From IMG/VR virus record IMGVR_UViG_3300046791_000179, positions 1 to 39,716 of that record: a DNA stretch of 39,716 nucleotides, one strand, 5' to 3'. Under the pieces are notes generated by a model. It was not told the origin of the DNA and did not search any database. It was given only the letters and a program-made list of their open reading frames with translations. Shown here in pieces: positions 2,564 through 32,423 of this stretch (position 1 is the stretch's first letter; the number at the start of each line of letters is the position of its first letter). The position numbers and the translations under genes were made by a program. Origin of the DNA: a virus.

Positions 2564-3903
2564 TGTTGAACTCCCTGCTGTTGAGCGAGCCATGCTCGAT
2601 TTGCCGGAGTATCTTTAATAGGTCTTCCTTGCCAAGTTAAACCACCCGGGGTCTGTTGGCCTTGCATCGCCCCTAACATAGGACCTGCCATAGCTTTCAA
2701 ACCTCGAATAGCTGTTTCACGATTAATTCTTTTCTGTTCGCGCACATTAGGCTTGTCTCCTATCTGATCAAAATATTGCTTATTTCCAGATTCCATTTCC
2801 TGTTGAGAAATCATCATGCCGGATTCTTTTCTTAAAACTGCTGCCATAAAATTCCTTTTAGCTTGCTCAATACTTTGAATTCCTTCGCTTTGCGCTATGT
2901 TTGGCAAGAAAGATTGACCTCCTTCTGAAATGCTAGTGGGATCAATGCCTTTTTGCAATAAATTTTCGAATTGTTGATTCGCTTCGGCTGCTCGCGTACC
3001 GAACAGTCCGGCGTTCATCTGTCCCTCAGAAGGTGTCTTAGGCTGAAGCATTCCCCCGCCTGGAACCTGTCCTACTACTGTCTTTGTTGGATCTTTGGTT
3101 CCATAGAAAATAGGTTTCCCGGTCGCGTCTAGACCACCCATCATAAAAGTCCCTTCAGGAGCCATGCTCTTTTTCATTTCCATCCACTGATCAAGAGTAA
3201 TTTCACCTTTATTATATTTGTCGGCCAACACCGCCTCGAAAGATCCGGGCTCTTTATCTTTTTTCATGTCGCTAAATAGTTTTTTGCTTTCACCGAACTT
3301 CTTAGCCTGACCTAAATTCCAAGATCCGGCTTCCAGAGGCAACCCGAGATTTGCCAATTGAGGCCCAATATTCGGCATAGGTTGAGGTCCGGCAACCGGA
3401 TAAGAAGGCCCTTGAACTTGCGTTGCCTCTCCGATATCCATCCGGGTCGGTCTTAATTTCCCCCCACCCTGAAAATTCCTGAATTGCTCGATAAAGTTCG
3501 GCTTAACACCTTGATTAGCCATCTGCTGTTGAGGAGGGAGTCCCATCATGCTTTGGTTCACCTGAGGGCCTCCAAAAGAAGGCATAGGAGTCGGAGGCGT
3601 AACCTGCTCGACCATATCGAAAGATGAGACAGGCTGAGAGAGCGCATTACCACTTAAAAGTTGAAATAAGTTTTGCCCTTCTACTCCAGCCTCTTGAGCC
3701 TTCCTCTGCGCCTCCGCTAATTGGAGTTGGTAAAGATCGTTCTTTTGTTTTCTCTCTGCCTCTAGGCTTTTAGCCTGAACCAAAGACGAAAGTCCAGAAG
3801 CGATAGGATTCATCACCGACTCAGCAAAATCAGGACGTTGTAAATTCTGTTGCCCTTGCTGAAATGTTTGCCCGTAGGCTCCTTCGTTAAAATTTAATGG
3901 CAT
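2560..3903 (-). CDS. Internal virion / DNA-ejection-type protein
   Basis: The 447-residue product is Gln-, Met- and Pro-rich. Start ATG 3903 has AAGGAG upstream. The region near residues 350-405 contains NFMAAVLRKESGMMISQQEM followed by QYFDQIGD and NRETAIRGLKAMAGP. This is the widespread phage pattern AAVLRxESGAxIS...KQYFPxxGD...Q...NR...A, found in structural proteins encoded near tail genes. The N-terminal 80 residues are helical and Gln-rich. It lies between two other ejection candidates and overlaps the next by ATGA. An ejection-complex component is the best inference; the biochemical role is not established from sequence. Confidence 0.6.
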   Translation of the reverse strand: MPLNFNEGAYGQTFQQGQQNLQRPDFAESVMNPIASGLSSLVQAKSLEAERKQKNDLYQLQLAEAQRKAQEAGVEGQNLFQLLSGNALSQPVSSFDMVEQVTPPTPMPSFGGPQVNQSMMGLPPQQQMANQGVKPNFIEQFRNFQGGGKLRPTRMDIGEATQVQGPSYPVAGPQPMPNIGPQLANLGLPLEAGSWNLGQAKKFGESKKLFSDMKKDKEPGSFEAVLADKYNKGEITLDQWMEMKKSMAPEGTFMMGGLDATGKPIFYGTKDPTKTVVGQVPGGGMLQPKTPSEGQMNAGLFGTRAAEANQQFENLLQKGIDPTSISEGGQSFLPNIAQSEGIQSIEQAKRNFMAAVLRKESGMMISQQEMESGNKQYFDQIGDKPNVREQKRINRETAIRGLKAMAGPMLGAMQGQQTPGGLTWQGRPIKDTPANRAWLAQQQGVQQ

Positions 3904-14801: not shown

Positions 14802-15855
14802 AGTTAGAACTGAACCAAGTCAAGATGACTCCAGCTGAAGGATTCAAAACCTTCGCCGCCATATACAGTTTGTAACCAATCATGGTTATCTGATTAAGCG
14901 GGTCCGTTTTGTCCGGGCCGGTGACGATCATAACTTTGGCGTCTTTGCCTCCGAGCTTCGATACACCATAAGCCTGACGTCCGAAGATAAGGGTCCCGTA
15001 AAGGGTCCCTCCCAACGAAGCGTAGGTGGTAGACCAAGTAGAAGCCTTTGAAGTCGCCGTAAACGCATTCGACGTTTCGTCAAACATAACACGTTCAATC
15101 GTTCCCAGGCGTCCTTTATCAAGAGCCGAGGCGCGGTTGGTGTAAGCCATCCAAGTCGGGAAAGTGCTGTCCGAGCGAACATGATCCGAAACTATCGGAT
15201 CGATAATCCCACGGAAGTTTCCGTCATCAAACGGCATGGCATTCATATTCTTCAAGTGAGTCACAGCATGACGAATATGAGAGATAGCACCAATGGTTGA
15301 GAAAGCTCCGTTAGCTAAAGGAGCTGCTATTCCGTTCGTACCAGTCGGCCAATAAACAAGGTTCGCGTTTCCTTCCAGAATCGGGAAACCTTGGGAATTG
15401 ACGGACGGGAACGTCGCGGAAGCCGCGTTTGCAACGCCAGTGGAAGCATCGCCTTGGAATCCGATCTGCTGACCTACGAGAGTGTCTTTCGTAAGCGCAG
15501 CTCCGTATCCAAGAGCTTTCACTGTTTCATCCACAACGGGGTTAACCGCTGTACGATCCACTTGATCCGAAATCGATTTCAGGTCCGCGTATTGAACCGG
15601 GACAGCTGAAACTTTCCGGGTTGAAACTGCCGAAGCCGCCGGGGTAGACCCGTCGCCTAAAGCGTATCCAACCGAAGGATTGAGTAGCTGATGCCAGATA
15701 ATCGTGTTACCTGCGTTTTCGGGAAGAGGACGTTGTTCGCCGTACTTATCGTAGACGAGATTTGCTTCAAGACGTTCCAAAAACACCTTGTCGTAGTAAT
15801 TACCGATCATGGTGGTAATAGTCGCTTGTGCTGCTAGTGTTGCCGCATCTGTCAT
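14800..15855 (-). CDS. Major capsid protein (N4 gp56-type)
   Basis: This 351-residue protein has the features of the N4-gp56 family of HK97-fold capsid proteins: NYYDKVFLERLEANLVYDKY near 18-38, then RPLPENAGNTIIWHQL and a Gly/Thr/Ala-rich segment VGYALGDGSTPAASAVS. A YADLKSISDQVDRTAVNP helix follows, then a C-terminal beta-rich half. ATG 15855 has GGGGGTG 8 bases upstream, a strong site fitting a highly expressed gene. It follows the scaffold gene and is followed by a terminator. The assignment is confident from sequence style and position. Confidence 0.88.
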   Translation of the reverse strand: MTDAATLAAQATITTMIGNYYDKVFLERLEANLVYDKYGEQRPLPENAGNTIIWHQLLNPSVGYALGDGSTPAASAVSTRKVSAVPVQYADLKSISDQVDRTAVNPVVDETVKALGYGAALTKDTLVGQQIGFQGDASTGVANAASATFPSVNSQGFPILEGNANLVYWPTGTNGIAAPLANGAFSTIGAISHIRHAVTHLKNMNAMPFDDGNFRGIIDPIVSDHVRSDSTFPTWMAYTNRASALDKGRLGTIERVMFDETSNAFTATSKASTWSTTYASLGGTLYGTLIFGRQAYGVSKLGGKDAKVMIVTGPDKTDPLNQITMIGYKLYMAAKVLNPSAGVILTWFSSN

Positions 15856-22023: not shown

Positions 22024-22263
22024 TTACTCATTGCTTCGTTCCGGTAAGTCGGCTATTAAAGAAACTCTGGAAATCTGTTGATCCCTTATCGCTTTCCCTG
22101 TCCACATATAAGCTTCTTCGAGGGCGGTCATAAGGAGGCTTTTAGGGCGGGAATCTTTAAGTGTCTTATTAGCGAATACTTCAATAGAGGTGAATAGGTT
22201 CTTAAACTCTGCCTGAGCCAGAATAGACTCTGGATCGTATTGAACGTAATCAAATCGACTCAT
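22024..22263 (-). CDS. Acb2/Tad1-type hairpin protein, candidate anti-CBASS/anti-Thoeris sponge
   Basis: This 79-residue helical protein has the core DSRPKSLLMTALEEAYMWTG followed by KAIRDQQ (about 37-64). It matches the pattern S-R-x-K/E-S-L-x-x-T-x-L-E-E-A-x-M-W-x-x-x-A-I of the Acb2/Tad1 hairpin domain family. Studied members of that family sequester cyclic-nucleotide signals of CBASS and Thoeris. ATG 22263 follows AGGAACCCG and overlaps the upstream gene by 14 bases. Many phage proteins with this hairpin are untested, so the domain call is stronger than the activity call. Confidence 0.6.
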   Translation of the reverse strand: MSRFDYVQYDPESILAQAEFKNLFTSIEVFANKTLKDSRPKSLLMTALEEAYMWTGKAIRDQQISRVSLIADLPERSNE

Positions 22264-22612: not shown

Positions 22613-22645
22613 AAAGATTAGGTTTTAATCTTTTGGATGTAAAGA
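22613..22645 (-). promoter_or_regulatory. AT-rich dyad with possible weak promoter
   Basis: AAAGATTA-ggttt-TAATCTTT (22613-22633) is a perfect 8-base dyad just after the HNH gene. On the minus strand a TTTACA box precedes it, and TAATCT follows 17 bases later; the -10 match is only 3 of 6. It may be an operator over a weak promoter or a poor terminator. Confidence 0.3.
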
Positions 22646-24541: not shown

Positions 24542-24709
24542 CTAGGTCTTTGAAAACGATACGAGTTTTCTATCTCTTTTAACCTTAAGCAGAAGGTATC
24601 GCAAGGAATTGGCCTGAACGCGATGGGCCTTGGAGCAATAAGATCTACCCTGAGACTTCTTTGCGAGGATGGGGAAGTAGCACCAATCACACTGGGTTTT
24701 TATGTTCAT
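24542..24709 (-). CDS. 55-residue zinc-ribbon protein, probably leaderless
   Basis: The frame ATG 24709 to TAG 24542 encodes MNIKTQCDWCYFPILAKKSQ followed by GRSYCSKAHRVQ. Cys7/Cys10 and Cys25/His29 form a likely zinc site, like the small YCS..CRxxAxR ribbons of phages. The C-terminus is strongly basic (LLKVKRDRKLV), consistent with nucleic-acid binding. The -10 box of a consensus promoter ends only 6 bases before the ATG, so the message would start at or next to the ATG without a ribosome site. Confidence 0.65.
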   Translation of the reverse strand: MNIKTQCDWCYFPILAKKSQGRSYCSKAHRVQANSLRYLLLKVKRDRKLVSFSKT

Positions 24710-25370: not shown

Positions 25371-25615
25371 TCTATTTCCTCCTCCGGCCAGTCTATTTCT
25401 TCTTTAATTGCTTGATTCTTTCTTTGAAACTTTGGATGTGTCTCGTGATATTGAGCCGTAACTTCAGCGCCTGTTTGTGGTTTACTGTAACCTCCCACCG
25501 TATAAAACTCTGTCTTATGCCCCAAAGTATCATGGGCATTCTTTTCCGAATCATCACCTAACTGCTTATTTCTACAAGTGATGCAGTAAGGAACTTTACG
25601 GAATGAAGCGGTCAT
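25367..25615 (-). CDS. Hypothetical protein with CxxC and His pairs
   Basis: The product is 82 residues with CITC near residue 11 and spaced His residues in NAHDTLGHKTEF, which could complete a zinc site. The C-terminus is acidic. ATG 25615 shares ATGA with the replication gene stop. Confidence 0.6.
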   Translation of the reverse strand: MTASFRKVPYCITCRNKQLGDDSEKNAHDTLGHKTEFYTVGGYSKPQTGAEVTAQYHETHPKFQRKNQAIKEEIDWPEEEIE

Positions 25616-26421
25616 AAAATCTTTAGGGTCGCTAGTTGAGGCAACGGGCCGTTTAATTTAAGTTCGTACTTCTTAGCTAAACCCTTCCAGAGAGGATTAT
25701 CTACAAGTGCATTAATAGCCGGGCAAAAGGCGACAACTGAATAACCCTGAGTCCGATACCAGTCGTTGTCGGTTGAAAGGTAAACGTCCCAAAGGGCCAT
25801 AACCCCCCAAGCCATGTAAGCCCGAACCTGAGGCCGAAGCAGGGAAGCCTCCTTGCCACTGAATCGAAAGACGGCCCCCGGCTTCTTACGCTCCCAGGTT
25901 GCTTTTAGGTGGGCTATCGTTTCTTTCCAAAAGACGTCTCTCGGATGTTCAACTTGAAGTTTAAGTTTACTTTCGTTTTTAGAAGAAGAGGCTGAGGGTA
26001 CCTCAGCAATATTCTTTAAGTCTTTTATAGCTTCTAGCTTCTTAGCTTCTAGCTTCTTAGGCGTTAGGTTGGCGTTAGGTTGGTGTTTCGAGTAATACCT
26101 CTTCTGGCGAATGTTGTTAGATTCTCTTTCATTTTCCTCACGAATCATACGGCGTGAAATAAGCGTTAGTTTTTCGTTAGACTCCGTTAGGTTTAAAACA
26201 TTCTTCCTTTTTAGGCCTTCCAAGATAGTCCTGAATTTTAGCCACTCTATACCTACCATTTGGGCTAAATCCTGAACCGATCCAACCATCCTCCCGCGCT
26301 CCGGGGCGTTCCATAAAAAGCATAAAAGATCCATCCAGACAGCCCTTTCTTCCAGGGTCAGGATACGAGTATCATAAAGATAGTCTTGGGGGTAAAACTT
26401 CATAAAAGGCATCTTAGCCAT
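25612..26421 (-). CDS. DUF1376-like replication initiator candidate
   Basis: This 269-residue protein starts MAKMPFMKFYPQDYLYDTRI at ATG 26421 after GAGGGGGT. The N-terminal 100 residues form a winged-helix-like region with TLEERAVWMDLLCFLWNAPE and DLAQMVGIEWLKFRTILEGL, typical of DUF1376/YdaU and replication-initiator proteins. A linker (about 115-175) contains the duplicated PKKLEAKKLEA. The C-terminal WERKKPGAVFRFSGKEASLL region may recruit host factors. Since no polymerase, primase or helicase gene is recognised, this is the best candidate for starting replication with the host replisome. Confidence 0.65.
   Translation of the reverse strand: MAKMPFMKFYPQDYLYDTRILTLEERAVWMDLLCFLWNAPERGRMVGSVQDLAQMVGIEWLKFRTILEGLKRKNVLNLTESNEKLTLISRRMIREENERESNNIRQKRYYSKHQPNANLTPKKLEAKKLEAIKDLKNIAEVPSASSSKNESKLKLQVEHPRDVFWKETIAHLKATWERKKPGAVFRFSGKEASLLRPQVRAYMAWGVMALWDVYLSTDNDWYRTQGYSVVAFCPAINALVDNPLWKGLAKKYELKLNGPLPQLATLKIL
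26028..26057. repeat. Perfect 15-base tandem duplication in the replication gene
   Basis: TAGCTTCTAGCTTCT occurs twice in direct succession (26028-26042 and 26043-26057), encoding the duplicated KLEAK unit. It adjoins the CGTTAG repeat cluster. Confidence 0.85.
26061..26190. repeat. Iteron-like CGTTAG repeats (candidate replication origin)
   Basis: GCGTTAGGTTG is tandemly repeated at 26061-26071 and 26072-26082. CGTTAG also occurs at 26164-26169, 26175-26180 and 26185-26190, 10-11 bases apart, roughly one helical turn. All lie inside the replication-initiator-like gene, as the lambda origin iterons lie inside gene O. The origin role is inferred. Confidence 0.5.
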
Positions 26422-26446
26422 ACTACCCCCTCGATCTATTGGGAGT

Positions 26447-26483
26447 AAAAAATACCCGTTCCTTGCGAGGGGCAAGGACGGGG
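26447..26483 (-). terminator. Intrinsic terminator 3 of the tandem array
   Basis: In the transcript CCCGTCCTTGC pairs with GCAAGGAACGGG (one bulged A, loop CCCTC), followed by TATTTTTT. It ends 26 bases before the ATG of the replication gene. Confidence 0.8.
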
Positions 26484-26484
26484 T

Positions 26485-26525
26485 AAAAAGAAAGCCCCTG
26501 ATTCCGGTTAAGGAACCAAGGGCTT
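26485..26525 (-). terminator. Intrinsic terminator 2 of the tandem array
   Basis: AAGCCCTTGGTTCC and GGAATCAGGGGCTT form a 14-pair stem with two G-U pairs around a TTAACC loop, followed by TCTTTTT on the minus strand. Confidence 0.85.
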
Positions 26526-26531
26526 CTCTTT

Positions 26532-26593
26532 AAAAAAAATTGCCGAGGCTGACTAAAACTAAGTTCGGGCGAACAGAGGTCAACGCTCGGCAA
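26532..26593 (-). terminator. Intrinsic terminator 1 of the tandem array
   Basis: TTGCCGAG pairs perfectly with CTCGGCAA and is followed by eight T. The 38-base loop contains the smaller hairpin GTTCG-CC-CGAAC (26574-26563) and a TGAC/GTCA pair, giving a nested structure. Confidence 0.8.
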
Positions 26594-26632
26594 AATCGAT
26601 TTTATTTTTATGTTCGCCCTAAACATAGAAAG

Positions 26633-26661
26633 AGTTTATTTATCTAATGCGTTTCTGTAAA
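26633..26661 (-). promoter_or_regulatory. Promoter of the leader RNA before the replication gene
   Basis: TTTACA (26661-26656), a 17-base spacer and TAAACT (26638-26633) lie on the minus strand. Six bases separate the -10 box from ATG 26626, the same geometry as the promoters at 32374-32402 and 24716-24743. Confidence 0.55.
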
Positions 26662-32232: not shown

Positions 32233-32367
32233 TCATGCTCGACTTGAGGGTGAATCCCAATCCGTCCGTTTGCATCTTGAACAAACCTTGGGGGCCTTAT
32301 CCCTTCGAGGGAACCACTTCCACCCGCATTTTTTACATTTAAGTTTTTTAAGTTTTATTTCTACCAT
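32233..32367 (-). CDS. 44-residue zinc ribbon, probably leaderless
   Basis: ATG 32367 to TGA 32233 encodes MVEIKLKKLKCKKCGWKWFP and continues to VCSRCKRTDWDSP. Cys11/Cys14 and Cys29/Cys32 form a standard four-Cys ribbon common in phage early genes. The -10 box ends exactly 6 bases before the ATG and no ribosome site exists. Likely a nucleic-acid-binding regulator. It leads the leftward early unit. Confidence 0.7.
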   Translation of the reverse strand: MVEIKLKKLKCKKCGWKWFPRRDKAPKVCSRCKRTDWDSPSSRA

Positions 32368-32373
32368 TAAAAT

Positions 32374-32402
32374 AGTATATACCTATACGTAGTGAGTGTA
32401 AA
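32374..32402 (-). promoter_or_regulatory. Early leftward promoter
   Basis: TTTACA (32402-32397, 5 of 6), 17-base spacer and TATACT (32379-32374, 5 of 6) lie on the minus strand. ATTTTA then ATG follows. It would start the zinc-ribbon, RecT and RNA-ligase unit, back to back with the rightward operon. Confidence 0.7.
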
Positions 32403-32423
32403 GTAAAAAGTTAAAGAATCTTT

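Follow-up and report, generated by a model that had tools for sequence, protein, structure and literature searches.

The attenuator of the Escherichia coli pyrBI operon lies inside the gene of the leader peptide (pyrL), where a ribosome that follows RNA polymerase closely keeps it from terminating (PMC4824070, PMC5021804). In the pil1 locus of Streptococcus gallolyticus, translation of a leader peptide past a terminator raises downstream transcription (PMC3894217). Among phage elements, put of HK022 is an RNA element that acts in early-gene transcription and suppresses termination (PMC9378689). Here we describe a phage leader that may work along the lines of pyrBI and pil1.

The window, by which we mean the whole stretch of 39,716 nt that was analysed, is a 39.7-kb virus record of a podovirus-like group with an SU10-type portal (about 20-25% identical to the HMO-2011-like portal), RecT, an RNA ligase and a tail fibre. 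Its minus strand carries nearly all of the genes and also the leader element, the whole of which fits in a 250-nt gap between the stop of a 79-aa gene (26671) and the ATG of a 269-aa gene (26421; Table 1). The 269-aa protein matched primosomal and DnaD-like helicase-loader profiles of PHROGs (E 9e-6 to 5e-5) and, below the cut-off, DUF1376. A preliminary description of this DNA had spoken of a replication gene and of its initiator ATG; the profiles make a replication gene probable and do not establish the term initiator.

Table 1. Positions of the leader element, its neighbouring genes and related promoters in the window
Feature	Position	Strand	RNA (from +1)	Remarks
Upstream gene, 79 aa	26671..26910	-		stop 10 nt ahead of the -35
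Promoter TTTACA-17-TAAACT, C preceding the -35 (CTTTACA)	26633..26661	-		-35 TTTACA 26661-26656; 17-nt spacer; -10 TAAACT 26638-26633; consensus and three-copy motif
Leader ORF, 67 codons	26423..26626	-	AUG at predicted +1	open through T1-T3; TAG 1 nt before next ATG
S1 5' arm, GGGCGAACA	26611..26619	-	+8 to +16	
Predicted terminator T1	26532..26593	-	+34 to +95	14-bp stem, one bulge, 25-nt loop, U8; hairpin 26593-26540
S1 3' arm, TGTTCGCCC	26567..26575	-	+52 to +60	in T1 loop
Predicted terminator T2 with U-rich tail	26485..26525	-	+102 to +135	hairpin 26525-26492
Predicted terminator T3 with U tract	26448..26482	-	+145 to +172	hairpin 26482-26455
Shine-Dalgarno-like GAGGGGG of downstream gene	26426..26432	-		overlaps leader ORF end
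Downstream gene, 269 aa, DUF1376 / primosomal helicase-loader-like	25612..26421	-		profile matches
Sister promoter CTTTACA-17-TATACT	32374..32403	-		motif copy; leads to leaderless 44-codon Zn-ribbon ORF, ATG at offset 6
Sister promoter CTTTACA-17-TAATCT	22615..22644	-		motif copy; structured leader, terminator ~22540-22509, next gene
Perfect consensus promoter TTGACA-16-TATAAT	24743-24709	-		ATG at +1; Zn-finger-like 55-codon leaderless ORF

The proposed promoter is present on the minus strand. Its consensus score (9/12) is at chance level, with 6 such sites in the region against 4.5 expected. The extended motif CTTTACA-N17-TA[AT][AT]CT, which was defined post hoc after its copies had been seen, has exactly three copies in the window (26662, 32403 and 22644), always intergenic and on the coding strand, and not once in 100 shuffles. 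By this motif the leader promoter is one exact member of a putative phage-specific class of three. No other promoter scoring at least 9/12 was found for the downstream gene from about 28.1 kb to the gene start, and none lies between T3 and the gene. The gene would therefore be transcribed only by passing T1-T3, which bears out the earlier claim that its expression requires readthrough or antitermination. The upstream gene stops so close to the -35 that upstream transcripts would enter T1-T3 too.

At the third member of the class (22644-22489, minus strand) a strong 5' hairpin (ATCGCGT/ACGCGAT) is followed by an intrinsic terminator immediately 5' of a Shine-Dalgarno sequence and an ATG; this leader is attenuator-like as well and has no leader ORF. 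One gene beyond it, at 22024-22263 (minus strand), a 79-aa protein matches the Pfam Acb2/Tad1 hairpin domain above the cut-off (28.6 versus 27 bits) and is a possible anti-CBASS/anti-Thoeris sponge. A further minus-strand promoter at 24505-24477 shares CAATAGGATT with the 24743 promoter and has an inverted repeat between -35 and -10, ATAGGA-TTGTTG-TCCTAT, that is likely an operator.

All three tandem terminators described earlier between the promoter and the replication gene could be recognised by fold and U tract. They are strong, they fall within about 140 nt ahead of the downstream ATG, and they rank among the best predicted intrinsic terminators of the coding strand of this genome. T1 lies 77 nt past the last stop codon of the upstream operon. 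The 205-nt leader as a whole folds with a z of -7.6 relative to dinucleotide shuffles, and no alternative pairing for T2 or T3 was seen within it. Elsewhere on the minus strand, a gap between structural genes (17451-16880) holds a strong 16-bp terminator (17312-17275), and in the next 400 nt or so this strand has no long ORF.

The ATG at 26626 lies exactly 6 nt past the -10, at the usual +1 position. The frame that it opens overlaps the terminators and ends beyond them, touching the downstream gene as TAG-T-ATG, and the predicted intrinsic terminators stand between promoter and structural gene as in a translation-coupled attenuator. In shuffles, an ATG at the +1 offset together with a frame that meets no stop until at most 4 nt before the next start had a joint p of 1.5e-4, and the same test on the leader of a relative (G005, below) gave p = 0.008; both values are optimistic, the architecture having been recognised after inspection. 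An ATG exactly 6 nt past the -10 is found at three promoters of the window (the leader, 32402 and 24743), and the ORFs at two of them look real (a Zn-ribbon at 32367 and a Zn-finger at 24709), which suggests that leaderless messages with a +1 AUG are a habit of this phage. With a codon-usage score of -0.02, where most of the small genes here reach +0.1 to +0.4, the 67-codon frame is neutral and hence no normal protein gene; an equal score was obtained for the leaderless ORF at 24709. A neutral frame would suit a leader peptide under the constraint of RNA folds, and an accident equally well.

The 5' segment of the RNA had been said to pair inside the loop of T1, and the match is in fact perfect. 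The duplex of GGGCGAACA and TGTTCGCCC (S1, -19.4 kcal/mol) was equalled in 1 of 2000 shuffles, and in none of 2000 when the 5' arm was widened (-21.5 kcal/mol). S1 occupies the T1 loop alone and engages neither arm of the T1 stem, and in our models it competes only with small hairpins within and ahead of T1. The competing folds proposed earlier are not supported. With nested folding S1 and T1 look like alternatives, S1 forming first (-21.8 kcal/mol at nt 74-86) and being displaced once the 3' arm of T1 exists, whereas an H-type pseudoknot fits both. By our estimate the two can coexist in this way at about equal stability (-28.8 versus -27.7 kcal/mol for the nested T1 fold, with a rough pseudoknot penalty). 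A role of GGGCGAACA as a repeated repressor operator was also considered and rejected, the sequence not being enriched in the window (11 copies versus 7.7 expected).

Leader homologues were found neither in phages or plasmids by blastn nor among the loci of relatives. Queries with the portal, terminase and DUF1376 proteins recovered no relatives in viral contigs, nor did portal and capsid queries in genome contigs; L002, the closest relative by RNA ligase, carries just the C-terminal half of the DUF1376 protein and is without the leader. The only pattern match to the leader in viral contigs (L052) is unrelated and a chance match; at 3000-3260 of that contig a cluster of DnaA-box-like TGTGGATAA/TTATCAACA repeats adjoins palindromic GTTCG...CGAAC elements, possibly a replication origin with no relation to the leader. 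The capsid protein query led to a family comprising some ten partial genomes, and in one of these, G005 (L049; capsid protein 53-55% identical), positions 15403-15538 hold a comparable leader. A promoter TTGACA-17-AATACT lies 10 nt past the previous stop, as in the window, and an ATG 6 nt past the -10 opens a leaderless 33-codon frame that runs through a terminator to a stop overlapping the next ATG. The first 13 nt of the RNA pair with the terminator loop over 13 bp (matched in 0 of 2000 shuffles). The 12-bp terminator begins at +32, that of the window at +34. Counted from +1 in window and G005 respectively, the 5' arms of the terminator stem (S2) lie at 34-48 and 32-44, the 3' arms of S1 at 52-60 and 46-58, and the 3' arms of S2 at 74-87 and 68-79; the loops of the H-type pseudoknot measure 17 and 18 nt (L1), 3 and 1 nt (L2) and 13 and 9 nt (L3). 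The two leaders cannot be aligned, while the spacing of all parts agrees to within a few bases. G005 thus appears to repeat the architecture of the window leader with an unrelated sequence. The preliminary description had named a coding signal for the 67-codon frame in relatives as evidence against its reading. G005 supplies this evidence in part, with a frame of the same kind in unrelated sequence, and with it the reading shifts from a riboswitch to translation-coupled attenuation.

A strict scan for this geometry in 1 Mb of related loci returned three matches, namely the window, G005 and L060. Three shuffles gave 0, 0 and 2 at the loosest threshold and no match once an S1 score of at least 22 was required; the L060 match (13221) was set aside as probable coding sequence. 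In a stricter promoter-AUG-terminator scan the leaderless offset was matched only by the window, G005 and a doubtful L038, with none in shuffles. At L038 2734 a leaderless frame does run through a terminator, but it is oriented antisense to its neighbours, and S1 is absent. Relaxing the leaderless-plus-terminator scan across the family gave 5 matches versus 1-3 in shuffles, not clearly above them, and a broad long-loop scan for pairing between loop and leader was uninformative where the strict version was useful. Two other loci are weaker analogues, retained as weak support. In G001 (L048 6456-6230, minus strand) a promoter and two tandem terminators precede an HTH_17 gene and a replication-initiation operon; the leader has repeated CGTAGGC motifs, one terminator with a large structured loop, and a short ORF (12 codons) ending at the base of its first terminator. 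In L014 (4590-5221, plus strand) a promoter, two terminators and AT-rich repeats are followed by a primase-helicase-like gene, possibly a phage replication origin with a regulatory RNA. In both (L014 4590-4800 and L048 6456-6233) the arm complementary to the terminator loop contains the Shine-Dalgarno sequence of a leader ORF, and the spacing differs from that of the window.

The promoter, the terminators, the leaderless ORF and the S1 complementarity are evident from the sequence. Our preferred reading, to which we give somewhat less than an even chance, is that the leader is a translation-coupled transcription attenuator of the pyrBI/pil1 kind. Polymerase would start at the 26661-26633 promoter and make an RNA with AUG as its first codon. 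A ribosome would load at once on this leaderless AUG, trail the polymerase and cover the 5' arm of each of the three terminators on its emergence, so that T1-T3 would be kept unfolded and transcription would reach the downstream gene; the ribosome would then stop beside the downstream ATG and its Shine-Dalgarno sequence, coupling the two translations. If no ribosome arrived in time, the transcript would end after about 95 nt at T1, with T2 and T3 as back-up, and the 5' end with the start site would pair with the T1 loop through S1 and so become shut off in a pseudoknot. RNA of the upstream operon would also end at T1-T3, because its last stop precedes T1 by so short a distance. Assuming that about 14 nt of RNA are hidden in the polymerase, it would travel about 57 nt between emergence of the AUG and that of the S1 partner, which we infer to take about 1 second at usual rates. 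Translation does not usually keep a terminator from working when it lies in the first 100 bp of a coding region, unless the polymerase pauses (PMC4824070). With T1 ending at about +95, a pause or very fast leaderless initiation would therefore be needed; no pause site was identified in the leader, where inspection picked out only an A-rich stretch from +17 to +28. We infer suppression of the terminators by the ribosome, closure of the start site by S1 and control of replication. With just two independent examples and a pattern that we recognised post hoc, our confidence in the attenuator is no more than moderate.

Chief among the alternatives is an insulator that marks an operon boundary, in which T1-T3 would end the upstream operon and block stray transcription and the frame would be accidental; the promoter would give a short stable RNA or nothing useful, and low readthrough would feed the gene. 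We consider this explanation less likely than the attenuator, though worth serious attention. The distance from the upstream stop to T1 is ordinary for an operon terminator, mobile elements often carry tandem terminators that guard against spurious transcription (PMC8955417), and the neutral codon usage of the frame agrees with it. Yet the promoter precedes the terminators and is of the three-copy class, with none between T3 and the gene, and the +1 AUG, the open frame and the stop-start contact recur in G005; an insulator accounts neither for the promoter position nor for the +1 AUG and the G005 parallel. Another alternative is a small stable RNA: the product ended at T1, pseudoknotted, some 95 nt long and protected at its 5' end, would act in trans, while T2 and T3 would only insulate. 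S1 and T1 do make a plausible H-type pseudoknot in the two phages, with loops of matching size, but the two RNAs share no sequence conservation, which a trans target would usually impose, and the G005 terminator directly abuts a gene start. We see this as a slim prospect.

Processive antitermination by a factor or a cis-acting RNA, as with Q at the lambda pR'-tR' late promoter or HK022 put, would have a polymerase modified near the promoter ignore T1-T3 later in infection. The order of promoter, leader of about 95-180 nt, terminators and gene is indeed the pR'-tR' layout, tandem terminators without an alternative fold suit a processive mechanism, and G001 has a promoter, two terminators and a replication operon likewise. 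However, PHROGs revealed no Q- or N-like protein among about 50 proteins of the window, and inspection of +1 to +15 found no clear -10-like hexamer, whereas Q needs a -10-like sequence in the initial transcribed region (PMC6606751). The +1 AUG and the frame would also be left unexplained, and we regard this mechanism as improbable. Lowest in our estimation, and very improbable, is a ligand-sensing riboswitch with S1 as antiterminator, close to one of the readings first proposed for a gate on replication. That S1 forms ahead of the T1 3' arm in nested folding would suit it. Against it, S1 uses neither T1 arm, where the alternative helix of a riboswitch-type antiterminator uses an arm of the terminator stem; S1 leaves that stem free and is for this reason not a classical antiterminator. 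Because T2 and T3 also have no alternative fold, a ligand switch acting through S1 could not open the path. Nor is there an aptamer-like conserved core, and the covariance models of Rfam 15 gave 0 matches to the leader at the gathering score. An attenuator gating replication is still plausible, with no other promoter and T1-T3 in the path; its riboswitch form is unsupported.

Going further along the translation-coupled reading, we may speculate that this environmental podovirus family has a self-closing leaderless attenuator, in which the AUG at the first base of the RNA allows a ribosome little time to load and a missed ribosome lets the 5' end lock in the terminator loop as a pseudoknot, a proposal that we hold to be rather doubtful. 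If it were true, expression would depend on free ribosomes and on neither regulator protein nor ligand. Should the translation-coupled reading itself be right, a replication-type gene would be coupled to translation without protein or ligand. The leaderless start codon and the terminator loop would form a single structure. The architecture would also be conserved between phages with its sequence fully replaced, and ordinary homology searches would miss such cases.

The phage leader has the general layout of lambda pR'-tR' (PMC6606751), with a promoter, a leader and one or more terminators ahead of the controlled genes; unlike that system, the window yielded no Q homologue or clear -10-like pause element, and its leader is an open frame with a +1 AUG. 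In contrast to HK022 put, the first terminator is here itself within the structure, and the leader has no Rfam match. It resembles pil1 in a leader-peptide stop within or beyond the terminator and differs in having no repeats and no phase variation, a fixed long frame, a leaderless start and three terminators. With pyrBI it shares a predicted intrinsic terminator within the leader ORF; the UTP-sensitive pause is known for pyrBI and not for the phage leader, the phage gene is of the replication type, and there is no homology. In contrast to pyrBI, the phage leader begins with a leaderless +1 AUG, runs through three terminators and pairs its 5' end with the loop of the first. Taken together, we judge this leaderless, three-terminator, loop-paired design to be probably new relative to the pyrBI and pil1 attenuators.
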